Assembly: GCF_024505085.1 (NCBI RefSeq)
Contig: NZ_JANIBC010000002.1
Span: 301,016-365,015, forward strand
Reading direction: 5' to 3'
Source of the DNA: Parvularcula maris
GTDB taxonomy: Bacteria; Pseudomonadota; Alphaproteobacteria; Caulobacterales; Parvularculaceae
Length of the DNA stretch: 64,000 bases
The notes beneath the pieces were generated by a model, which was given only the letters and a program-made list of their open reading frames with translations, was not told where the DNA came from and searched no databases. This document shows positions 6,771 through 46,406 of this stretch, piece by piece. The position numbers and the translations under genes were made by a program. Position 1 is the stretch's first letter; each line of letters begins with the position of its first letter.

Positions 6771-6897
6771 GTCATCCCGGAAAGCACGCAGTGCTTATCC
6801 GGGATCCACGGCCTGCGGTTTCTATAGAGACAACGGACGGGACATTTTGAACAGCTAGGTCCATGGGTCCCGGATAGCCTCCGGCTTCCGGGATGAC
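6771..6897. repeat. 127-bp palindromic intergenic element, copy 1
   Basis: Bounded by perfect 12-bp inverted ends GTCATCCCGGAA (6771-6782) and TTCCGGGATGAC (6886-6897). Each end also folds locally (CCCGGA...TCCGGG). A second element of exactly 127 bp lies at 29777-29903 in the opposite orientation, sharing the ends and the inner GGATCCACGG and TCCATGGGTCC blocks while the centre differs. It has no coding capacity, and looks like a non-autonomous MITE or REP doublet. Confidence 0.85.
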
Positions 6898-8963: not shown

Positions 8964-10039
8964 ACCTTGGCTCCCCTCTTGCCCCGACCGATGACCGGTG
9001 CCGCCTCACCATCGAGGGGCCAGCGCGGGCGGGGCGCCAGGGCCAGTGCGTCCTCCTGGGAAGGGGCGAGCCCGGCGGCATGGAGCTGATAGCCCGCCAG
9101 GGCGATCATCGCCGCGTTGTCGGTGCAGTAGCGTAGGGCGGGCGCCTTGAACGAGGCGCCCGAGCGCTCCGCCAGCGCTTCGAGCTCGCTCCGCAGCACG
9201 CTGTTGGAAGCGACGCCCCCCGCCGCCACCAGCGCCTTGGCGCCGCTTTGGGCGAGGGCGCGTTCGGTCTGGCGGATGAGATGGGCGATAGCGGCCTTCT
9301 GGAAGGAGGCGGCGAGGTCGGCCTTGGTGCTCTCGTTCAACGGTGCGGCCTCCTGCGCGGCCTGACGAACGGCGGTCTTCATGCCGGAGAAGCTGAAGTC
9401 GTAGCCCTCCCGTCCGAGAAGGGGCCTCGGCATGGCGAACCGCTCGGCGTCGCCATCGCGAGCCAGCCGCTCGATGGCGGGGCCGCCCGGTGCCGGCAGG
9501 CCCATCAGCTTGGCCGTCTTGTCGAAGGCCTCGCCGGCCGCGTCGTCGATGGTGGTGCCGAGGCGCCTTGCCTGCCCCGGCCCCTCAATGATCAAGAGCT
9601 GGGTGTGCCCGCCGCTGACAAGGAGGAGGAGGTAGGGCAGCTCCGCCCCGCCCTCGAGACCGACGGAAAGGGCGTGGCCCTCCAGATGGTTCACCGGCAC
9701 GAGCGGGACGCCGCTAGCGATGCTGAGCCCCTTGGCGAAGGTGAAGCCCGCCATCACCCCGCCGATCAGGCCCGGTCCGGCGGTCGCCGCGATTAGGGAG
9801 AGGTCGGGGACGCTCACCTCGGCTTCGGCGAGCGCCTCCTCGGCCACGATGTCGATGAGGTCGGCATGGGCTCTCGCGGCGATCTCAGGGACGACGCCGC
9901 CAAAAGGAGCGTGAGCTGCATCCTGCCCCCTAACGATCGAAGACAGAACCTCGACGTCCTCACCGATGCACAGCACTGCCGCGGCGGTGTCGTCGCAGCT
10001 CGACTCGAGGCCCAGGACCAGTTGCGGTTGCTCACTCAT
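8960..10039 (-). CDS. tsaD: tRNA N6-adenosine threonylcarbamoyltransferase
   Basis: TsaD, 359 residues, transfers the threonylcarbamoyl group to A37 of ANN-decoding tRNAs, working with TsaB and TsaE. Motifs: SSCDDTA (13-19), the metal-binding HLEGH (His118 and His122), SGGHTQL (142-148) and DDAAGEAFDK (165-174). tsaE is encoded at 24250-24711 in this window; tsaB is not seen. Its start lies only 24 bp from the hemC start on the other strand, so the two promoters must overlap each other or the coding regions. Confidence 0.97.
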   Translation of the reverse strand: MSEQPQLVLGLESSCDDTAAAVLCIGEDVEVLSSIVRGQDAAHAPFGGVVPEIAARAHADLIDIVAEEALAEAEVSVPDLSLIAATAGPGLIGGVMAGFTFAKGLSIASGVPLVPVNHLEGHALSVGLEGGAELPYLLLLVSGGHTQLLIIEGPGQARRLGTTIDDAAGEAFDKTAKLMGLPAPGGPAIERLARDGDAERFAMPRPLLGREGYDFSFSGMKTAVRQAAQEAAPLNESTKADLAASFQKAAIAHLIRQTERALAQSGAKALVAAGGVASNSVLRSELEALAERSGASFKAPALRYCTDNAAMIALAGYQLHAAGLAPSQEDALALAPRPRWPLDGEAAPVIGRGKRGAKV

Positions 10040-36092: not shown

Positions 36093-37670
36093 TCAGTCTG
36101 CGGTCAGTACGTCGAGCAGTTCGCGGTTGCTGGGCAAGCCTGCGAGGCACTGCTCGGTCGTTCGGGCGATGTTGGTCAGCGTGCCGCGAATGGCCTGCGG
36201 GTCGTCCTTGCGGCGGCGTCTTACAGGCGGCGCGGTCTCGAAACCCATGCCGTAGAGCACATAGGCGTAGCTTGCGGCGGGGAAGATCTCCCGCGACTGC
36301 TGAAAATCCTCCCGGCTCGGCGGTTCGAACCGCCACTGCCCCAGAAGCTCGTGCAGACGCTCCGGCCATGTCGATGGATCGCGATGCGCCTGCCAGTAGG
36401 GCTCGCTTCTGCGGCTGAGCACATAGTGCAGCTTGAGGAAGTCGACGATCCGCTCCCATCGGTAGGCGAAGCGGCCGTTGAAACGTGCCGCAGCGAGCGG
36501 CAGCGCGGCTCTGTTCTCCGGCAGCGTGTCGCTGAGCATCGAGGCCATCAGCTCGATCATGACGATGGCGGATGCCTCCAGCGGCTCGACGAAGCCCGCC
36601 GCCATGCCGATAGCCGCCACGTTGCCGGACCACGGCTTCTCTCTGTAGGCGGAGCGGAACTTGATCAGGCGTGCCTCTTCGCCCGATAGGGAGGTGCCGG
36701 GAGAGACCCTCTGCAGATAGTCCGATAGGGCGTGCCGCGCCTCCTCTTCGGAGGAGTGCTGGGACGAGAAGACGTGGCCGATGCCTCGCCGGGTCTGAAG
36801 TGCGATGTCCCAGACCCAGCCCGCTCCGAGCGCCGTGGCCGTCGTCTGGGAAGCCACCGCCTCCCTTTCCTCCTGGAACGGAAGATGAACCGCCAGCGCC
36901 CGGTCGTTGAAGAGGACGTCCGATACATCGGTCACCCCCGCCCCCTCGGTTCTGCCGATCAGGAGCGCACGGCTGCCGCTGCAATCAGCGAAGAAATCGC
37001 CCTCGATCCGCTGGCCGTCCGTGGTCAGTACAGCTTGAACCATACCGCCCTGCGAGGTCACGACATCCTCGATATCCGCCGGTATGTGGCGAACGCCGAG
37101 TACGGAGGTTGCGTGCTGCTTCAGAAGCTCGGCGAAGGCCGGGGCGTCGAGGTGGTAGCCGTAATTGGCGACGGCTGCGTATTCGGGGGTCGAGGCCTGC
37201 TTGGGCGCGCGGTTCGCCTGGCAGAGCGCTGCCTGGTGACTGGCTACCTCGTGGAACGCCACACCAGTTCCCACCGTGCGCCAGAGGCTGAGCACATCCA
37301 CCTCGTCCTCGTTCGGCGGCGCCTCGAAAGGATGGTAGTAGCTGTCGCCCTCTTCCCCACTCACCCAGCTGTCGAAACGAGAGCCCTGCTTGAAGGAAGC
37401 GTTGCACCGCTTCAGGAAAGTCCGCTCACTGATGCCGATACGCCGCAGCGTGTCGCGCAGGCTCGGCCAGGTTCCCTCGCCTACGCCGAGGATGCCGATG
37501 CGGGGGCTCTCCACCACGGTGACCTGCAGGCCGTTCGCCTGCGAAGCGCAGTGGTCGGCGGCCAGGATCGAGGCCGTCAGCCATCCGGCCGTGCCCCCGC
37601 CCACCACGACCACGCGTCTGATCGCGCCCTGGGCTTCCTCCGTGTTCGGTAGCGTGCTTTCCGTGTTCAT
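36093..37670 (-). CDS. Flavin-dependent tryptophan-halogenase-like protein B
   Basis: About 525 residues, same family as the protein at 32829-34328 but clearly divergent. FAD site GGGTAGW, the catalytic-type Lys in ASFKQGSRF and the Glu in GFVEPLEAS are kept, yet the W-x-W-x-I-P signature reads WVWDIA. The Pro is lost, so the halogenation chemistry may be altered. It is the first gene after the TonB receptor, downstream of the hairpin at 37695-37724. The start is uncertain: ATG 37670 (AGGG 10 bases upstream) or an in-frame TTG at 37676. Confidence 0.88.
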   Translation of the reverse strand: MNTESTLPNTEEAQGAIRRVVVVGGGTAGWLTASILAADHCASQANGLQVTVVESPRIGILGVGEGTWPSLRDTLRRIGISERTFLKRCNASFKQGSRFDSWVSGEEGDSYYHPFEAPPNEDEVDVLSLWRTVGTGVAFHEVASHQAALCQANRAPKQASTPEYAAVANYGYHLDAPAFAELLKQHATSVLGVRHIPADIEDVVTSQGGMVQAVLTTDGQRIEGDFFADCSGSRALLIGRTEGAGVTDVSDVLFNDRALAVHLPFQEEREAVASQTTATALGAGWVWDIALQTRRGIGHVFSSQHSSEEEARHALSDYLQRVSPGTSLSGEEARLIKFRSAYREKPWSGNVAAIGMAAGFVEPLEASAIVMIELMASMLSDTLPENRAALPLAAARFNGRFAYRWERIVDFLKLHYVLSRRSEPYWQAHRDPSTWPERLHELLGQWRFEPPSREDFQQSREIFPAASYAYVLYGMGFETAPPVRRRRKDDPQAIRGTLTNIARTTEQCLAGLPSNRELLDVLTAD

Positions 37671-37694
37671 CTCCAAGGTGCCCTAGCACAAACG

Positions 37695-37788: not shown

Positions 37789-40700
37789 TTAGAAGGTATA
37801 GCGAACGCCGACATTGTAACGCGGCCCGTTCTGGGTGGCGAAGTTCACATAGGCGGCACTGTTGCCGACCACCGTCCGGGTCTCGTTGAGGACGTTGATG
37901 CCCTCGACATAGGCGGTCAGCTTGTCCGTGACATCGTAGCTCGCGCTGAAGTCGAGCTGGCCGTAGGCCTCGACGAAGAGCGGGTTGTTGGCTTCGCCGT
38001 TCACCCCGAAGGTCGAGGCCAGGAACTCGTCGCGCCAGTTATAGGCGAGACGGGCCTGGATACCGTCCTTGTCGTAGAAGCCGACGAGGTTGTAGCTGTC
38101 CGACAGACCGGTGAGGGCGAAGACCTGCTCACCCGACCCTGCGCTGGCCGCGCCGGGCTGGTTCGGATCGAAGGTCACGTCGCCGTCCACGATCGTATAG
38201 TTGGCGATAAAGCCGAAGCCGGTCTCGCCGAAGACATGCTGCCAGGCGAACTCCCAGCCGTCCACCGAGCGGGTTTCCTCGTCATTGATCGGACGGTTGA
38301 TCTGGAACTGCAGCAGCGGATCCTCACCGGCCACACCGAAGATGTTGCCTGTGGTGTTCCCGGCAACATCCGTACCCGTCACCTCGAAAGTGTTCGGATC
38401 GGCATTGTCGAAGATCCACTGCCGGATGGCGACCAGGTCTTCATCCGACCCCAAAGCAGCGACCGCTGCGTTCCAGCGCGCACCGCCGACGGGGGTGTAG
38501 ATGTCGAACGGCGTGTCAAAGATCGTCTCGACACCGTTGAAGTTCTCGACCTCTTTCCAGAAGTAGCCCACCGAGATGTAGCTCGCGTCGTTGTAGTAGT
38601 ACTCCGCAGAGAAATCGAGGTTGGTCGAGAGAAACGGCTCGAGAGCGGGGTTGCCCGCGCTGCCGTCGCCCCCGTCAATGCGGAAGAGCTGCGCCACGGT
38701 CTGACCACCCTGAATGTCCGCATAGGACGGACGGGTCATTGTCTTGCTGTAGGACGCACGCAGAACGACATCGTCATGCGGGTTGACCTGGAAGTCGATG
38801 GCCGGGAGCCAGAAGTCGTAGTCGCCTTCGAGCTGCGTGAAGTCGCGGTTCTCGGGATCGTTGACGCCCAAGAGACCGAACTCGTTGGCCGCGACCCACT
38901 GGGTGCCCGTGGGGATCGGAACGAGCGCTTCCGAGGTGACATCCGTCTGCTCGTAGCGCACACCGGCGATGATGCTGGCGGGCATCGAGCCGATCATGAA
39001 CTCGGTGTCGATCTCGATGAAGGCCGAGTAGCTCTCTTCCTCGGTGCGCCGGTCGGTCGCCACGGGAACGTCGTTGATGCAGTTGCCATCGCCGCCACAG
39101 ATCGGACCGAAGGTGCCGATGGACTGGTCCATGATGGAAATGAGGCGCTCGAAGTCCACCACGAAGAACTCGCCGGGAATGCCCTGATAGCCGCCAAACT
39201 GATCGAAGTTCGATGCCAGATTGGTCCGCTCCCAGATATCGTCGGGGTAGTCGTCCGGCGAGCCGACGCCGCCCCAGCTATCACGCTGGTTGTTGGAGAA
39301 GGTCGATTGGAAGTCGTTCTTCGTCGCTGTCAGACCGAAGTCGATGCTGCGGACGATCGACTCGTCGAAGGCGTAGGTCGCGACGATCTGCGCCTGGTCG
39401 ATCTCGGTGCGGATGAAGCTGTCCTGGAAGGTCGAGCCGGTGCCGAGCATGCGCGCGGCGGCGATGTTGCTCGATCCGTCCTGGAAACCGAGGGCCAGGG
39501 TGGGGATCTCGGTGCGGAAGTCGAGGTCCTGACGCCTCAGGCTGAAATCCGCCGTGGACACCACGCCGGACGTGCCGAACGGGCTGTTCGAGCCGGACTC
39601 GGCGCTGGAGCTGTGAATGTCGAAGACGACGCTGAGGTTCTCGGTCGCCTCCCACTCGGCGTTGAAGCCCACGGAGTTCTTCTCGCTGAGCGTGCCGGTG
39701 CGCGCCGTGCCCATGGAGAGGTCGGTGCCCGCATCGCCGAAGTCCTCGTTGTAGAAGAGGATGTCGGAGATCGGGCCGTCGCCCCATGCGCTGGTCGTGT
39801 TGCCGTGGTTGAACCAGACCGAGAGGTCCGAGGTCCGGGTATCGATCTCGTTGCGCGAGTAGAAGTAGTCGAGGGTGGTCGTCAGCGTATCGATCGGGCG
39901 GTACTGAAGCGAGACCTGGCCGTTGATCCGCTCACGCTCGATGCCGACGAGGCTATAGTTCGCGTTCTGGGGAACGGCGTAGACGTCGTTGTCGCCGGGG
40001 CGGTTCTCAGCGCGTCCGTCGCGGGGCAGCGTGCCCCAGTTGTTGTCGGAGCCGAGATAGGCACCGCGCCACCCGCTGGTGGTGCCGAACTGGGCGAAGC
40101 CGCTCTCGCGCTTCTGGTAGGCACCGGTGATCGCCACACCGACTTTGTCTTCGAGGAAGGTGTTCGAGTAGAAGCCGGAGAACTCAGGGGTCACGGCAGG
40201 ATCACCGCCGTCGAGCTCGGTGATCGAATCGTCGATCACCGCCTTGGCGCCGAGTGAGAGCTTCATGCCGGGAGCATCGAGCGGACGCGCGGTGAGGATG
40301 TTCAGTGTCGAGCCAATACCGCCGGTGGGCAGGGCCGCGCGGCCTGTCTTGTAGACCCGGACGCCGGCGATGCCTTCCGAAGCGAGGTCGGCGAAGTCGA
40401 AGCTCCGCGAGGACGGCGCGCCGCCTTCGAGGAAGGCCGTCGGCATCTGACGACCGTTGAGGAGGACGAGGTTGTACTGGGGACCGAAGCCGCGGACGGT
40501 GACGGTGCTGCCCTCGCCGTTACGCCGGTCGATGGAGACGCCGGAGATACGCTGCAGCGACTCGGCGAGGTTGGTGTCCGGAAACTCGCCGATGTCCTCG
40601 GCGGTGATGGCATCGACCACGCCCTGGCCGTCGCGCTTGATGTCCGAGCTAGCAGCCAGCGCCTTGCGGATGCCGCGGACGATGATCACGTCGTCGGCGA

Positions 40701-40836
40701 GCGCCGTATCGGCGGAGTTTCCTTCCTCTGCCTCCACGTCCTGGGCGAAGGCCGGCGCCGTGACCGCCAGCGCCGAAAGGCTCGTGAATAGAGCCAGCGA
40801 AGTCTTCAGACCTCTGATGTTCGTTCCTTGTTTCAC
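37789..40836 (-). CDS. TonB-dependent receptor, carbohydrate-type
   Basis: A 1015-residue outer-membrane receptor. A GTG start at 40836 with GGGAGGG upstream leads a signal peptide ending APAFAQ. The plug domain follows (DVIIVRGIRKALAASSDIKR, DTNLAESLQRISGVSIDRR, TVRGFGPQYNLVLLNGR), then a long beta-barrel ending in the aromatic residue of GVRYTF. Size and plug motifs match the Caulobacter/Xanthomonas-type receptors often tied to oligosaccharide uptake. It lies 27 bp after the GH16 gene in the same direction, so the predicted cargo is a beta-glucan oligosaccharide. It probably depends on TonB-ExbBD encoded elsewhere. Confidence 0.94.
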   Translation of the reverse strand: MKQGTNIRGLKTSLALFTSLSALAVTAPAFAQDVEAEEGNSADTALADDVIIVRGIRKALAASSDIKRDGQGVVDAITAEDIGEFPDTNLAESLQRISGVSIDRRNGEGSTVTVRGFGPQYNLVLLNGRQMPTAFLEGGAPSSRSFDFADLASEGIAGVRVYKTGRAALPTGGIGSTLNILTARPLDAPGMKLSLGAKAVIDDSITELDGGDPAVTPEFSGFYSNTFLEDKVGVAITGAYQKRESGFAQFGTTSGWRGAYLGSDNNWGTLPRDGRAENRPGDNDVYAVPQNANYSLVGIERERINGQVSLQYRPIDTLTTTLDYFYSRNEIDTRTSDLSVWFNHGNTTSAWGDGPISDILFYNEDFGDAGTDLSMGTARTGTLSEKNSVGFNAEWEATENLSVVFDIHSSSAESGSNSPFGTSGVVSTADFSLRRQDLDFRTEIPTLALGFQDGSSNIAAARMLGTGSTFQDSFIRTEIDQAQIVATYAFDESIVRSIDFGLTATKNDFQSTFSNNQRDSWGGVGSPDDYPDDIWERTNLASNFDQFGGYQGIPGEFFVVDFERLISIMDQSIGTFGPICGGDGNCINDVPVATDRRTEEESYSAFIEIDTEFMIGSMPASIIAGVRYEQTDVTSEALVPIPTGTQWVAANEFGLLGVNDPENRDFTQLEGDYDFWLPAIDFQVNPHDDVVLRASYSKTMTRPSYADIQGGQTVAQLFRIDGGDGSAGNPALEPFLSTNLDFSAEYYYNDASYISVGYFWKEVENFNGVETIFDTPFDIYTPVGGARWNAAVAALGSDEDLVAIRQWIFDNADPNTFEVTGTDVAGNTTGNIFGVAGEDPLLQFQINRPINDEETRSVDGWEFAWQHVFGETGFGFIANYTIVDGDVTFDPNQPGAASAGSGEQVFALTGLSDSYNLVGFYDKDGIQARLAYNWRDEFLASTFGVNGEANNPLFVEAYGQLDFSASYDVTDKLTAYVEGINVLNETRTVVGNSAAYVNFATQNGPRYNVGVRYTF

Positions 40837-40863: not shown

Positions 40864-41862
40864 TTAGCGAGCCTGGGTTTCCCACGGCCCTTGGGGTTTC
40901 CCGTTCCACTCGGTATCGGTGAGACAGGCCTTGCCGCTTTCGCGGTCTCCACGGCACTCCTCCACGCGCACCCAGTCGATGAGCAGGCGGGAGGGGAACG
41001 ACTTCCGATCGAAGCCGCCATCGTTGGATTTCTCGGCGAGGTTGCCCCCCACCGCGTAGTTCAGCATCAGGTAGAAGGGCTGGTCGAAGGGCGCGAAGCT
41101 CCGCCCTCGAGCCTCTTCGGATGCGGTATGCCACTCATCGGCGTCGATGCGCATGAAGAGCTCGCCATCGACCAGCCACTGAATGCGATCCTCCGCCCAC
41201 TCGACCGTGTAGACATGCCAGTCGTCAGCAGGCGTTCCTTCAGCCATCTCGTCTGCTTTGAGGAAGAGGTAGGTGTTGTCGGGCGCTCTATCGCCGAAGT
41301 GAAGGGCGCCGGAGGTCCGGGTCTCGATACCCGCCTCGCACTCCTCGCAAGGCGTGCCGAGATTGACCGCCTCCATGATGTCGATCTCGCCCGAAAGCGG
41401 CCACTGACCGTAGACGCTGCTCTCCGGCATCATCCAGAAGGCCGGCCAGGTACCCTGCCCTTCGGGAAGCTTCATGCGTGCGGAGAAACGGCCGTACTTC
41501 CATGAAGCCAGACCCTTCGTGCGGACCTTGCCCGACGTGTAGCGCCTGGTCGTCTCGCCCTCGCCGAGATAGGCGAGCTCGTCCGGGTAGGTCGGACCGG
41601 TGAAGCGCTCGCGCTTGGCGATGAGATGGAGCGCGCCGTCTTCGACGCGGATGTTGCGCTGACGGTCCGTATAGCACTGGCGCTCGTTATTGCCGCCGCC
41701 CCAGCAGGAGATTTCAGGCTGCCACTTGCTGCGGTCCAGCTCCGTGCCGTCAAAATCGTCCTGCCAGACGACTTCCCACTGGGCATCGTCAGAGGCTGCC
41801 CGAGCCTCTTCCACGCCATACAGTATGCTGAACAGCCCGAAGGCTGCTGCCGCAAGCGACAC
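40864..41862 (-). CDS. Secreted GH16 beta-glucanase (laminarinase-like)
   Basis: A glycoside hydrolase family 16 enzyme of about 332 residues. The catalytic motif E-I-D-I-M-E spans residues 159-164 (Glu159 nucleophile, Glu164 acid/base), within WPLSGEIDIME. Flanking landmarks are SGKVRTKGLASWKYGRFSAR, WPAFWMM, WHVYTVEW and the C-terminal IDWVRVEE. This pattern fits endo-1,3(4)-beta-glucanases. I chose the GTG at 41862, 7 bases after GGGAGGA, which gives a hydrophobic leader; a GTG at 41901 would add a charged extension. Paired direct repeats (41952-41986) and a TATAAA box upstream suggest control by the nearby LytTR regulator. Confidence 0.93.
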   Translation of the reverse strand: MSLAAAAFGLFSILYGVEEARAASDDAQWEVVWQDDFDGTELDRSKWQPEISCWGGGNNERQCYTDRQRNIRVEDGALHLIAKRERFTGPTYPDELAYLGEGETTRRYTSGKVRTKGLASWKYGRFSARMKLPEGQGTWPAFWMMPESSVYGQWPLSGEIDIMEAVNLGTPCEECEAGIETRTSGALHFGDRAPDNTYLFLKADEMAEGTPADDWHVYTVEWAEDRIQWLVDGELFMRIDADEWHTASEEARGRSFAPFDQPFYLMLNYAVGGNLAEKSNDGGFDRKSFPSRLLIDWVRVEECRGDRESGKACLTDTEWNGKPQGPWETQAR

Positions 41863-41910: not shown

Positions 41911-41951
41911 CGTTAAGAGGACAACACCGAGCGGCTCATCTCAAGCGCCTT

Positions 41952-41986
41952 GCGGTAGAACGGACTTCTCCTGCGCCGAAGCGGAC
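41952..41986 (-). promoter_or_regulatory. Paired direct repeat upstream of GH16 gene (putative LytTR operator)
   Basis: Two copies, GCGGTAGAACGGAC (41952-41965) and GCGCCGAAGCGGAC (41973-41986), start exactly 21 bp apart, about two DNA turns. The shared core is ARCGGAC (GTCCGYT on the minus strand). The same arrangement occurs upstream of the GH3 gene. LytTR-type regulators bind two direct half-sites with about this period. Confidence 0.6.
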
Positions 41987-42059
41987 CAAACCGGATCATC
42001 TGCCGCAGACTGTGCGAAAGAGTGGCGCTGTTTCGCCGCACCCTTTCGCGCCTGCAGCA

Positions 42060-44297
42060 TCACCGCTCACTGAGGGTGAAGCTCGCGGAGAGCGCCGTGT
42101 CCGAGGACCCGCCGACCATCACGTCGAACGCACCCGGCTCGACCAGGAACTCGCCTCTCGGGTCGTAGAAGCCCAGCTCCTTTTCGGTCAGCTCGAACCG
42201 GATAGTCCGCGACTGACCGGGCCGCAGGGAGACCTTCTCGAAGCCTTTCAGCTCCTTGACCGGCCTGCTGACGCTGGCCACCCGGTCGCGGATATAGAGC
42301 TGCGCGACCTCCTTGGCCTCGTGGTTGCCTGTATTGCGAAGCCGGACGGAGACCTCGAAGCCGTTGCCCTTCTCCCGCACGCGCAGGCGGTCGTATTCGA
42401 AGGAGGAGTAGCTCAGTCCGTGTCCGAACGGATAGAGCGGCGCGTTGCTCTCATCCATGTAGTGGGACCAGAAGACCTCCGTGCGCGGACCGGGGCGGCC
42501 CGTGTTCAAGGCGTTGTAGTAGATGGGGATCTGTCCCACCGAACGGGGGAAGGTCATGGGCAGCTTGCCGCTGGGCGAGACCTTGCCGGTGAGAAGGTTG
42601 GCGAGCGCCGTGCCGCTCTCCTGACCCAGATGCCAGGCTTGGAGGATGGCGGGCACGTTCTCGTCAGCCCAGGTCAGCACCAAGGGCCGCCCGCTCATCA
42701 CCACCAGCACCGTGTTGGGGTTGGCTTCGACCACCTTCTCCAGAAGCTCCTGCTGCAGGCCCGGAAATCCGAGCTCCGCGCGGCTTCGCGCCTCGCCGCT
42801 GTGATAGGCGTCCTCGCCGAGGACCAGCACCACCTTGTCGGCGGCGGCCGCCGCGCGCACCGCCTCCTCCATGCCGGAGCGGTCGGTCATGTTGACCTCG
42901 ATCTCGGTGGCGAAGTTCGTGTCGCTGGTCTCCAGCACGACGCCGGGCTCATGGTCGAAGGCGATACCAGCGGCTTCGAACCCCTCCACCACCGAGACGG
43001 CGCTGTCCTTCTCAGCCTTCGCGCGCCAGTTGCCCAGGGGGCTGTCCTTATCGTCGGCCAGCGGTCCGATCAGGGCGATGCGCTCGCCCTCTTTGAGGGG
43101 TAGCAGCCCGCCCTCGTTCTTGAGAAGCACGGCCGATTCCTCGGCGACCCGCCGCGAGACGTCGCGGTGCTCGGGGTCGCTGAGCACCTCGGCCTCCCGC
43201 GCCTCGTCGATATAACGGAAAGGGTCGTCGAAGAGCCCCAGATCCACCTTCGCCTGCAGCACCCGGCGCACCGCATCGTCCACCAGCCCCTCATCCACGA
43301 TGCCTGTCTCGACCAAGCCTTCGAGATGCTCGAAATAGGCGTAGCTCTCCATGTCCATATCCGATCCGCCGAGGATCGAGAGCCTCGCTGCGTCCTCGAG
43401 ATCGGCTGCGAAACCGTGGTCGATCATCTCGCGGCCTGAGCCCCAGTCGGAGACGACGAAGCCCTCGAACCCCCACCGGTCCTTGAGGATGTCGCGCTGC
43501 AGGAAATCATCCGCCGTCGCCGGAATGCCGTTGAGGGTGTTGAAGGCGTTCATCACCGTGAGCGCCCCCGCCTCCTCGATCCCGGCCTTGAAGGGCGGCA
43601 GCACCGTGTTGAAGAGGGTCACCGTGCCGAGCTCGGCGGCGTTGTAGTCCTTGCCCGCCTCGGCAAACCCGTAGGCCGCGAAGTGCTTGAGGCAGGCCGC
43701 GATCGTGTCGACGGCGGAGAGGTCCTCGCCCTGGAAACCCCTCACCCGCGCCACCGCGATGCGCGAGCCAAGATAGGGGTCCTCGCCCGCGCCCTCCATC
43801 ACCCGGCCCCAGCGCGGATCGCGGCTGATGTCGACCATGGGCGCGAAGGTCCAGTTGAGCCCTTGGGCCGCGGCTTCCTCGGCAGCGACCGCGGCGCTCT
43901 GGCCGATGAGGTCCATATTCCAGCTCGCCGCCTCAGCTAGAGGGATCGGGAACATCGTTTTGTGACCGTGGATCACGTCATAGGCGAAGACCATGGGGAT
44001 CTTCAGCCGCGAGTTCTCCATCGCGTAGGTCTGGATGGTGCGCACATCCTCCGCCCCCACCACGTTGAGCATCGAGCCGACGATGCCCTTCTCGACGGCT
44101 GCGAACTTCCGCTCTTCCATATCACCCGTAGGTGCCGGCCCGGTGGGGTCCCAGAAGCCGTTGAACTGGACGAGCTGACCGACCTTCTCCTCCAGCGTCA
44201 TCCGGTCGAGCAGCGCCTCGACATCGGTGCCCGCTTCCTCCGCAGGCTGAGCGGAACCGATGGCGAGGGCGGCAAAGGAGACGAAGGCGTTCAGCAT
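42060..44297 (-). CDS. GH3 beta-glucosidase
   Basis: A 745-residue family-3 glycoside hydrolase, BglX-like, with a short signal peptide (MLNAFVSFAALAIGSA). The (beta/alpha)8 domain contains RDPRWGRVMEGAGEDPYLG, CLKHFAAYG and the nucleophile Asp284 in FVVSDWGSG. The second domain has LVLGEDAYHSGEARSR and the LPMTFPRSVGQIP segment. A fibronectin-III-like C-terminal domain follows YPFGHGLSYSSF. It would release glucose from beta-glucan oligosaccharides produced by the GH16 enzyme. It is transcribed with the locus, 197 bp upstream of the GH16 start, and has its own putative LytTR operator. Confidence 0.95.
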   Translation of the reverse strand: MLNAFVSFAALAIGSAQPAEEAGTDVEALLDRMTLEEKVGQLVQFNGFWDPTGPAPTGDMEERKFAAVEKGIVGSMLNVVGAEDVRTIQTYAMENSRLKIPMVFAYDVIHGHKTMFPIPLAEAASWNMDLIGQSAAVAAEEAAAQGLNWTFAPMVDISRDPRWGRVMEGAGEDPYLGSRIAVARVRGFQGEDLSAVDTIAACLKHFAAYGFAEAGKDYNAAELGTVTLFNTVLPPFKAGIEEAGALTVMNAFNTLNGIPATADDFLQRDILKDRWGFEGFVVSDWGSGREMIDHGFAADLEDAARLSILGGSDMDMESYAYFEHLEGLVETGIVDEGLVDDAVRRVLQAKVDLGLFDDPFRYIDEAREAEVLSDPEHRDVSRRVAEESAVLLKNEGGLLPLKEGERIALIGPLADDKDSPLGNWRAKAEKDSAVSVVEGFEAAGIAFDHEPGVVLETSDTNFATEIEVNMTDRSGMEEAVRAAAAADKVVLVLGEDAYHSGEARSRAELGFPGLQQELLEKVVEANPNTVLVVMSGRPLVLTWADENVPAILQAWHLGQESGTALANLLTGKVSPSGKLPMTFPRSVGQIPIYYNALNTGRPGPRTEVFWSHYMDESNAPLYPFGHGLSYSSFEYDRLRVREKGNGFEVSVRLRNTGNHEAKEVAQLYIRDRVASVSRPVKELKGFEKVSLRPGQSRTIRFELTEKELGFYDPRGEFLVEPGAFDVMVGGSSDTALSASFTLSER

Positions 44298-44366
44298 GGG
44301 CGTTCCTCATGGGCTTGTTCTGTTTGCCCCACTCTTCGAAAAGAAGACCGGCGCGGCAAGGCCAGC

Positions 44367-44401
44367 GCGGTGAAGCGGACTTTTCCAGCGGTGAAACGGA
44401 C
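44367..44401 (-). promoter_or_regulatory. Paired direct repeat upstream of GH3 gene (putative LytTR operator)
   Basis: GCGGTGAAGCGGAC (44367-44380) and GCGGTGAAACGGAC (44388-44401) differ at one base and start 21 bp apart. They lie 70-104 bp upstream of the GH3 ATG, between it and the LytTR regulator gene. The core ARCGGAC is shared with the pair upstream of the GH16 gene. Confidence 0.65.
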
Positions 44402-44420: not shown

Positions 44421-45179
44421 TCATTTCATCCGGCCTGACAGCGTCTTGACGCCGTCACGGTAGGTCCGGCTGGACTTCACCTCGGCCCCGCTCTCCAGCA
44501 CGATCCGGGCCTCTCCCTTGGTCATCGGGTGGATCTCCCGAACCCACGCTGCCGAGACGATGGCCGAGCGGTGCACGCGGATGAAAAGGTCTGCCGGGAG
44601 CTCGTTCTGAAGCCGGTTCATCGGCCTTCTGACGGCGTACTCACGGTCCTTGGTATGCAGCAGGCAGTAGTCGCCAGCGGCCTCGATCCAGCCGATCTCC
44701 TCGAAGCGCAACACATAGGTCCGCCCGCCATCCCTGACGCTGATGGTGGGAACGTTGGCGGCGCGGTCCTGGCTTTCCGGCGGGTAGACGGCCAGCGCCT
44801 TGCTGGGTCCGCCGATCACCCGGTGGAGGCGCAGCGCCTTCTCCACGGCCCTTCCCACCCGTTCCTGATCGAGGGGTTTGAGGAGGAAGTCGATGGCGTC
44901 CACATCGAACGCCTCGAGCGCGTATTCGGGATGGGCCGTGGCGAAAATCAGCAGCGGCTTGGGCTCGGCGGTCAGCCTGCGGTAGGCCTCGACCCCCGAC
45001 CGGCCCGGCATCTCCACGTCGAAGACCGTTAAATCCACCCCGCCGCGGTCGATGACGGCTGCTGCTTCGTCAATGGACTGGACGGCGGCCACCACCTCGA
45101 TCTCACCGGTGGCGATCAGGAGATCGCGCATCAGTTCAAGCGCCGGAGGCTCGTCGTCGCAGATCACGGTTTTCAGCAT
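44421..45179 (-). CDS. LytTR-family response regulator
   Basis: A 252-residue two-component regulator. The receiver domain (1-120) has the acidic pair Asp8/Asp9, phospho-acceptor Asp54 (LTVFDVEMPG) and Lys in FLLKPLD. A LytTR DNA-binding domain (about 150-250) follows: YVLRFEEIGWIEAAGDYC, RRPMNRLQNELP, FIRVHRSAIVS. The ATG at 45179 is used; the longer frame upstream is a shadow of the kinase gene. It is divergent from the LytS-type kinase (90 bp) and directly upstream of the GH3 gene, so it is the natural candidate to bind the repeats at 44367-44401 and 41952-41986. Confidence 0.94.
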   Translation of the reverse strand: MLKTVICDDEPPALELMRDLLIATGEIEVVAAVQSIDEAAAVIDRGGVDLTVFDVEMPGRSGVEAYRRLTAEPKPLLIFATAHPEYALEAFDVDAIDFLLKPLDQERVGRAVEKALRLHRVIGGPSKALAVYPPESQDRAANVPTISVRDGGRTYVLRFEEIGWIEAAGDYCLLHTKDREYAVRRPMNRLQNELPADLFIRVHRSAIVSAAWVREIHPMTKGEARIVLESGAEVKSSRTYRDGVKTLSGRMK

Positions 45180-45269: not shown

Positions 45270-46406
45270 ATGTCGCTGTTTCCGAACCTGCCCCACTCCC
45301 CGGCCCTGCGTTCCCGCGAGGGGCAGTACTGGATCTCTCAAGTCGTGGGATGGGCCGGGCTGGCGCTCCTCAGCTATCTCAGCCTGACGCTGTGGTACAA
45401 TCCGGGCGAGCTGGTACCGGCATTCCACACCATCCTCCAGTCCGTCCTTGGGCTGATGGTCAGCCACGTGCTGCGGCTGGTATCGAGGTGGTCCTGGAGG
45501 AAACCTCTCTCTTTGAGGGTCGGCGTCAATATCCTCGGCGTGGCGATGGCGGCCCTGGTCTGGACCGCGCTGCGCCTCCAGACCTTCACCTGGCTCACCG
45601 GCGAGGTGGTCAATCCGGGCGATTGGGGCGGCTGGTTCTTCGCCTCGATGATGGTCTTCGGCTCCTGGCTCTTCTGCTACCACGCGGTAAAATTCTACCG
45701 CCAGGCGATCGAACAGCGCGAGCGGGCGCAGCAGGAGAAGGTCAAACGGCTCGAAGCCGAGGCGTTGTTCCGTGAGACGAAGATGCGCATGCTGCAGTAC
45801 CAGCTCAACCCGCATTTTCTCTTCAACGCCCTCAACTCGGTCACTGCCAGGGTCCACAGGGGGGACCAGAAAAGCGCCGTGCTGATGCTGAGCCGGATCG
45901 GCGAGTTTTTACGGCTCTCCTTGGAGCAGGACGAAAGACTTCAGCACACGCTGGAAGAGGAAGAGGAGATGGTCTGTCTCTATCTCGAGATCGAGAAGGC
46001 GCGGTTCGGAGACCGCCTCGTCACCCACTTCCGGATCGACGAGAACGCCAGCCGGGCCGTTGTCCCGACCCTGCTTCTCCAGCCCCTGGTGGAGAACGCG
46101 ATCAAGCACGGCGTGAGCCTCTCCCTCAGGACGACGACCATCGAAGTCGTCGCGGAACGGCGCGGAGACCGCCTCCACCTCTGCGTCAGGGATGACGGCT
46201 CGGGCAACCCCTCCGAAGGGCGCGTTCTCGCATCCCGGCGGGAGGGGATAGGGCTCAACAATGTGGAGGAGCGGCTGAGCTCCACCTATAGGGGCGATTT
46301 TACCCTGACCTACGGGCCGAGGACGGACCAGGGTTTCAAGGTGCTGATCGACGTCCCGTTCAGGGAGCTCTCCTTCGAAGAGGCCGGCCTGGAGGCCGCA
46401 GAGTAG
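45270..46406 (+). CDS. LytS-type sensor histidine kinase
   Basis: A 378-residue membrane kinase. About four hydrophobic segments (roughly residues 21-43, 52-72, 83-103, 119-142) make an integral sensor region without a recognised input domain. A short coiled coil (about 145-172) and the His_kinase domain follow, with phospho-acceptor His182 in QLNPHFLFNALNS. The ATP-binding part has LLLQPLVENAIKHG and RDDGSGN, then GIGLNNVEERL. It is divergent from the LytTR regulator and abuts the convergent ABC ATPase gene with no gap. The signal is unknown but probably relates to glucan availability. Confidence 0.93.
   Translation: MSLFPNLPHSPALRSREGQYWISQVVGWAGLALLSYLSLTLWYNPGELVPAFHTILQSVLGLMVSHVLRLVSRWSWRKPLSLRVGVNILGVAMAALVWTALRLQTFTWLTGEVVNPGDWGGWFFASMMVFGSWLFCYHAVKFYRQAIEQRERAQQEKVKRLEAEALFRETKMRMLQYQLNPHFLFNALNSVTARVHRGDQKSAVLMLSRIGEFLRLSLEQDERLQHTLEEEEEMVCLYLEIEKARFGDRLVTHFRIDENASRAVVPTLLLQPLVENAIKHGVSLSLRTTTIEVVAERRGDRLHLCVRDDGSGNPSEGRVLASRREGIGLNNVEERLSSTYRGDFTLTYGPRTDQGFKVLIDVPFRELSFEEAGLEAAE

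Follow-up and report, generated by a model that had tools for sequence, protein, structure and literature searches.

Algal beta-glucan use in bacteria has mostly been described via regulators of the LacI, SusR/HTCS or AraC type, and it is a job seldom tied to LytTR regulators. In a stretch of Parvularcula maris DNA (the window, 64 kb in its full length) genes predicted to serve such use adjoin a gene for a LytTR response regulator, and the question raised by this locus is whether that regulator governs them.

The predicted glucan genes and their paired repeats

The genes considered, with their Pfam or NCBIfam matches, were as follows.

36093-37676, minus strand: tryptophan-halogenase-family flavoprotein adjoining the receptor (PF04820)
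37789-40836, minus strand: TonB-dependent receptor (TIGR01782, 623.9 bits, cut-off 310)
40864-41862, minus strand: GH16 endo-beta-glucanase, laminarinase-like (PF00722)
42060-44297, minus strand: GH3 exo-beta-glucosidase, BglX-like (PF00933, PF01915, PF14310; NCBIfam BglX 740.7 bits, cut-off 666)
44421-45179, minus strand: response regulator with receiver and LytTR domains, proposed binder of both operators (PF00072, PF04397)
45270-46406, plus strand: membrane histidine kinase, divergent, proposed partner of the regulator (PF06580, PF02518; hydrophobic N-terminus)

Pfam domains bore out the GH3, GH16 and LytTR regulator genes (the last at 44421-45179) as called in a preliminary description of this DNA. 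For GH16, the best match among PDB sequences was the laminarinase 3iln (E 1.6e-43), and the GTG at 41862, which is preceded by the sequence GGAGGA, was chosen as the start. The receptor gene follows 27 bp after GH16 and probably shares one transcription unit with it. GH16 and GH3 glucanases together with a TonB-dependent receptor identify a predicted beta-1,3-glucan (laminarin) utilization locus.

Both domains of the regulator scored above their cut-offs (PF00072 69.0 bits, PF04397 78.2 bits), and its residues D54 and K101 were invariant in 10 sequences; the best NCBIfam match, BtsR, stayed below its cut-off (118.6 bits, cut-off 246). The kinase matched PF06580 with 78.6 and PF02518 with 37.7 bits, and its hydrophobic N-terminus was alike across 15 orthologues, with a stretch of approximately SLTLWYNPG in the part of the alignment viewed. 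A regulator with receiver and LytTR domains next to a PF06580-family kinase makes up a two-component system of the LytTR type. The preliminary description had spoken of a LytS/LytTR system, of which the LytTR regulator with its kinase stood, but the name LytS is not supported, because the kinase gave no match to the LytS-type 5TMR domain; its identification as LytS was rejected, the Pfam scan at E up to 0.001 having returned only PF06580 and PF02518.

Two operators were delineated upstream of the glycoside hydrolase genes:

44365-44400, minus strand: Operator 1, before GH3; a pair of direct half-sites whose starts are 21 bp apart (29.8 bits)
41950-41985, minus strand: Operator 2, before GH16; a pair of direct half-sites whose starts are 21 bp apart (23.5 bits)

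The four 14-mers from which the preliminary description had started (44367-44380, 44388-44401, 41952-41965 and 41973-41986) were all found in place, and its claim of two pairs, 21 bp start to start and sharing ARCGGAC, held beyond chance: the pattern ARCGGAC-N14-ARCGGAC had two exact matches in the 64-kb window (41959-41986 and 44374-44401), against a mean of 0.01 over 100 dinucleotide shuffles of the window, none of which reached two. When two mismatches were allowed, pairs numbered 6 with 2.95 expected, and since 8 of 100 shuffles reached 6, it is the exact pairs alone that are unusual for the window. Scored with a matrix trained without the window locus, the two sites reached the 29.8 and 23.5 bits given above, versus 6.8 bits for the next-best place in the window.

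A genome-wide scan had been proposed along with the pairs. The genome (3,186,764 bases, 48 contigs) contained exactly two zero-mismatch pairs, and both belong to this locus; a control with the reversed pattern gave two as well, with no excess for pairs with one mismatch either (7 versus 9 for the control). The genome count by itself thus shows no signal; the signal comes from the position of the two exact pairs, each upstream of one of two neighbouring genes and only 2.4 kb from the other pair, and from their conservation.

Conservation and shape of the operators

The regulator search covered 61 genomes (the own genome and 60 relatives) and yielded, besides the window's own regulator, nine near-full-length matches at 50-57% identity, the others among the matches listed being at most 43% identical. 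The 20-kb stretches around all nine orthologous regulators were compared. The kinase gene was divergent from the regulator gene, and GH3 followed the regulator, in 9/9 loci; GH16 and a TonB receptor came next in six of the nine (L040, L041, L042, L043, L045 and L047), a receptor without GH16 stood behind GH3 in two (L044 and L046), and neither was found behind GH3 in L048. A tryptophan-halogenase gene followed the receptor in all eight receptor-bearing orthologous loci.

Each of the ten loci, window included, carried one direct pair with a 21-bp period upstream of GH3 and one after GH3; where GH16 was missing but the receptor present (L044, L046), Operator 2 preceded the receptor. ARCGGAC is only part of the site, which on the coding (minus) strand has a half-site of approximately TCCnnTTCRCCGCA. 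Most conserved across species were TCC in the first copy and CGC in both: the first copy began with TCC in 20/20 sites and contained CG in 20/20 and CGC in 19/20, and the second copy contained CGC in 20/20.

These 20 sites had been picked with the consensus and a fixed period of 21 bp and were therefore retested without those aids. With leave-one-locus-out matrices (nine training loci each), both sites ranked as the top two in 10/10 left-out loci, at 22.9-39.1 bits with the next-best place at 10.1 bits or less. For further loci, the regulator alignment was used to scan named bacterial genomes, and of 185 loci encoding a relative the best 80 were examined. Fourteen of these 80 (L070-L083) were of the orthologous class, seven repeating loci of the first set, as judged from the length of the contig and the match, and seven new: L071 (Henriciella mobilis), L072 (Parvularcula sp. 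BBD 1991-13), L075 (Marinicaulis sp.), L079 and L080 (Hyphomonadaceae MAGs), L081 (Hyphomonas sp.) and L082 (Henriciella pelagia). Outside training, both sites were again the top two in 6/6 full new loci (22.7-34.6 bits, with no other place above 7.9). The counts of the first and the new loci are not fully independent because of close relatives among the orthologues (L044/L046; L079/L081). The contig of L075 ends inside GH3, and its one testable site, the GH3 site, ranked top with 36.1 bits. A matrix of the single half-site, with no spacing assumed, placed the two best half-sites 21 bp apart in 11/13 held-out regions, the exceptions being L071-GH3 (20) and L082-GH16 (86, but with the first and third best 21 apart). 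Operators of the LytTR type consist of repeats of about 9-11 bp with a spacer of 11-13 bp, and the 21-bp period in 20/20 sites and 11/13 held-out regions agrees with this. Conservation at related loci, which the preliminary description had named as a check on its proposal, was thereby confirmed, every orthologous locus tested having its pairs at the same two places.

These data bear on the reading that the repeats are due to chance, or are DNA kept by common descent only. Related genomes do share DNA by descent, and the exact count in the genome equals its control, but the sites persist while the surrounding intergenic letters and lengths vary between loci, held-out loci of other genera carry sites at the same two positions, and the motif is also found at some distal GH16 genes (below). 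Chance or descent alone is scarcely credible as an explanation and is largely contradicted by the held-out tests.

The motif with and without the regulator

Fifteen of the 61 genomes, ten bearing the regulator and five without an orthologous regulator, were scanned with a sequence model of the 20 sites, with 150 candidates scored per genome at first pass. In the ten regulator-bearing genomes at least 21 matches at E up to 1e-4 were obtained, consisting of the 20 training sites, which match by construction, and one new site before a distal GH16 gene of G004. The best E values in genomes without an orthologous regulator were 0.0055 (G002), 0.162 (G005), 0.053 (G008), 0.060 (G022) and 0.122 (G028); a match before the distal GH16 of G033, at E 0.008, was no better than the best of G002. 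At the loci of weaker model matches, L180, L182, L184 and L185, the best scores were 10.6, 10.6, 7.1 and 21.2 bits, respectively.

A GH16 search of the 61 genomes returned 23 matches at E up to 1e-20. Seven of them belong to the main locus; of the rest, six are distal copies in genomes that bear the regulator, and ten come from genomes lacking an orthologous regulator. Both groups outside the main locus were examined in full (16/16), one genome of the group without regulator, G024, being only 66% complete. Distal copies of at least 50% identity in regulator-bearing genomes, a limit chosen after the list had been seen, had a same-strand site in 3/3 cases, 280-317 bp upstream of the matched region, at 34.6 (G004), 17.4 (G001) and 16.6 bits (G009); 0.06% of 5280 background windows of 500 nt reached 16.6 bits. 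Among the remoter distal copies, that of G033 (38% identity) had a site of 5.5 bits with a spacing of 22 bp by eye, a third copy in G004 (41%) had one of 21.8 bits on the opposite strand, and upstream of the copy in G015 (37%) no site was found. GH16 genes in genomes without an orthologous regulator had a site within 500 bp upstream (350 bases for L187) in 0/10 cases, with best scores of -5.8 to -21.6 on the same strand and -4.1 to -24.6 on the opposite strand. Genomes without an orthologous regulator did contain matches of 21.2 bits (G002, L185) and 17.7 bits (G022, L068:3173, about 6.7 kb from GH16), and for this reason the two lower-scoring distal sites, in G001 (17.4) and G009 (16.6), are less than certain.

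Among the best 80, the remaining 66 LytTR loci (L084-L149) are more distant; their median best score was 3.3 bits, with five above 12 and three above 18. In the latter three, L118, L142 and L123, whose LytTR proteins are 32-35% identical, a site of the 21-bp period (29.8, 31.3 and 19.8 bits, respectively) lay right behind the LytTR gene and directly before a TonB receptor gene, which in L142 and L123 is followed by GH3. A second class of LytTR loci (L049-L059, n = 11) showed pairs upstream of the own kinase gene in L050 (19.7 bits), L053 (18.6 bits) and L057 (7.3 bits); in the other eight no site upstream of the kinase gene was among the best three places each. A 15.9-bit match was also noted in L054, far from the kinase gene, at 1142.

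If another regulator bound the repeats, the LytTR gene alongside would be a coincidence of synteny. Sequence alone cannot name a binding protein, a LacI-family gene stands at the GH16 locus of G028, and matches of 17-21 bits are scattered in two genomes without an orthologous regulator. Such a binder is nevertheless very improbable: the direct repeats have LytTR geometry and resemble the AlgR core, the five genomes without an orthologous regulator gave best E values of 0.0055 or worse, none of the ten GH16 genes in genomes of that kind had a site, and the distant LytTR genes of L118, L142 and L123 also adjoin one.

Proposed mechanism and related systems

At most sites a TTG stands at a fixed distance after the repeats, and it was taken as a candidate -35 element:

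44357-44359, minus strand: TTG, proposed -35 of the GH3 promoter
41942-41944, minus strand: TTG, proposed -35 of the GH16 promoter

Counted from the base before the second CGC, TTG began at +11 or +12 in 30/33 sites (the 20 and 13 held-out ones), 21 at +11 and 9 at +12, and was absent there in L040-GH3, L072-GH3 and L075-GH3. In 2000 single-base shuffles of the downstream stretch, TTG fell within +8 to +15 at a mean of 3.6 sites and at most 11. The search for a -10 element at 15-19 bp past the TTG hexamer gave no convincing candidate (mean best match 2.87 of 6 letters versus 2.53 in shuffled sequence).

The LytTR regulator very probably binds both operators and, with its kinase, would activate the neighbouring genes for predicted beta-1,3-glucan use. 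Kinase (45270-46406) and regulator (44421-45179) would form a two-component system dedicated to the locus. Once phosphorylated, the regulator probably sits as a tandem dimer on the two direct half-sites, on one face of the DNA, 21 bp corresponding to two helix turns; placed directly upstream of the TTG, the bound dimer would recruit RNA polymerase. Two promoters would be served in this manner, one for GH3 and one for the unit of GH16 and receptor, and in some species distal GH16 genes as well. The sites, their period, place and conservation and their co-occurrence with the regulator belong to the sequence itself; from them we infer binding by the regulator, dependence on phosphorylation, activation instead of repression, and beta-glucan as the substrate, with laminarin as a putative inducer.

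Repression, with the locus kept off by the bound regulator until a signal arrives, would have a precedent in CoxC, a LytTR protein of Afipia carboxidovorans that represses via direct repeats overlapping the -35 (PMC11347149), but is unlikely at this locus: in 30/33 sites a constant interval separates the end of the repeats from the TTG that follows, and the same paper sets CoxC apart from the majority of LytTR-type regulators, described there as activators that bind upstream of the -35 (PMC11347149). Activation by the LytTR regulator also accords with the operator geometry reported elsewhere, namely imperfect direct repeats of 8-13 bp about 12 bp apart (PMC4064291) and, in operons of LytTR Regulatory Systems (LRS), direct repeats of 9 bp whose spacing is mostly 12 bp and whose distance upstream of the -35 is mostly 10 bp (PMC6193735). 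The half-site geometry invoked in the preliminary description thus fits published operators both in the 21-bp period and in its place just before the TTG.

Several known systems resemble the present one in part. AlgZ/AlgR of Pseudomonas aeruginosa likewise combines a kinase with a LytTR-family response regulator, and an identical copy of the AlgR core CCGTTCGTC (PMC4064291) is contained in two half-sites of L040, one for each operator, with variants elsewhere. AlgR sites need not come in pairs 12 bp apart, and some are remote from the start site (PMC4064291), whereas those described here are paired at 21 bp before TTG; AlgR targets alginate, pili and others, unlike the predicted beta-glucan use at this locus. 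YpdA/YpdB and BtsS/BtsR (YehU/YehT) of E. coli are also pairs of kinase and LytTR regulator, and YpdB recognizes GGCATTTCAT as a direct repeat (PMC4847170), the period of which, counted on the published oligonucleotide, is 21 bp as in the present operators. The regulator described here differs from these in scoring below the BtsR cut-off and in its other targets, and its kinase in having no 5TMR match.

The regulators of LRS have no receiver domain and are paired with a membrane inhibitor; membership in this group was rejected for the present regulator, which has a receiver domain and a kinase as its neighbour. What LRS (HdrRM, BrsRM) have in common with it are paired direct repeats (PMC6193735).

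Regulator class and operator geometry are already known; a role as conserved, dedicated regulator of a beta-glucan locus was not found described in the literature searched. Literature searches for LytTR with laminarin, or a LytTR activator with beta-glucan, returned no open-licence paper, subscription papers lying mostly outside the coverage; among the papers listed, nothing on this system was found under Parvularcula and laminarin, tryptophan halogenase and LacI, LytTR with TonB and glycoside hydrolase, or LytTR in Alphaproteobacteria. One paper lists a LytTR response regulator in an arabinoxylan locus of Roseburia (PMC5320581). The defined operator offers a genome-searchable motif by which beta-glucan genes induced together may be predicted, and it raises the question of which signal is sensed by the conserved membrane kinase.

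With the window, nine plus seven orthologues, and the sites before TonB receptor genes in L118, L142 and L123, we lean slightly towards a broader reading, in which LytTR two-component systems may be a recurrent, undescribed class of regulators dedicated to glycan loci, found in Parvularculaceae and Hyphomonadaceae as well as other Caulobacterales-like bacteria, in the role that the LacI family has elsewhere. TonB-receptor glycan loci under a LacI regulator, as in G028, resemble the window in that genes for a receptor, GH3, GH16 and a tryptophan halogenase are clustered. The GH16 of G028 is 61-62% identical and has a LacI-family gene next to it, in contrast to the two-component LytTR regulator of the window; for GH3 and receptor the likeness between G028 and the window is only distant (27% and 37%, respectively).

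Kinase genes and pairs upstream of them

In the kinase encoded divergently from the LytTR regulator (45270-46406, forward strand), a stretch resembling SLTLWYNPG is located between the first hydrophobic segments and was kept across 15 orthologues, which makes it a candidate signal-sensing element. Similar 21-bp pairs were located in two loci of a second class of kinase-LytTR pairs: at 14928 in L050 (19.7 bits) and at 4613 in L053 (18.6 bits). Since each pair is positioned upstream of the locus's own kinase gene, self-regulation of these second-class kinase-LytTR pairs is suggested.

Variants of the GH16 locus

The orthologous locus L048 contains the second operator (9358-9393, 32.1 bits), and neither GH16 nor receptor was detected downstream of its GH3; the operator is perhaps a relic, or serves another gene. 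At 9750-12109 of L060, whose genome lacks the orthologous LytTR regulator, a LacI-family gene adjoins a GH16 that shares 61-62% identity with that of the window, so that a regulator exchange at the GH16 locus, LacI-family gene versus LytTR regulator, is possible.

Sites in further genomes

Sites with the 21-bp period were found immediately upstream of TonB receptor genes in L142 and L118 (10785-10820 in both) and in L123 (1441-1476), each with a distant LytTR gene (32-35% identical). GH3 follows the receptor in L142 and L123; the L118 sequence stops within the receptor. In a gammaproteobacterial MAG (L085, 1772-11029), a LytTR gene of 37% identity has GH3 (three matches) and GH16 (one match) as neighbours, and a site at 6881 scores 15.1 bits. 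A match of 21.2 bits (L185, 7424) was obtained in G002, a genome with the same genus label as the window and without the orthologous regulator.
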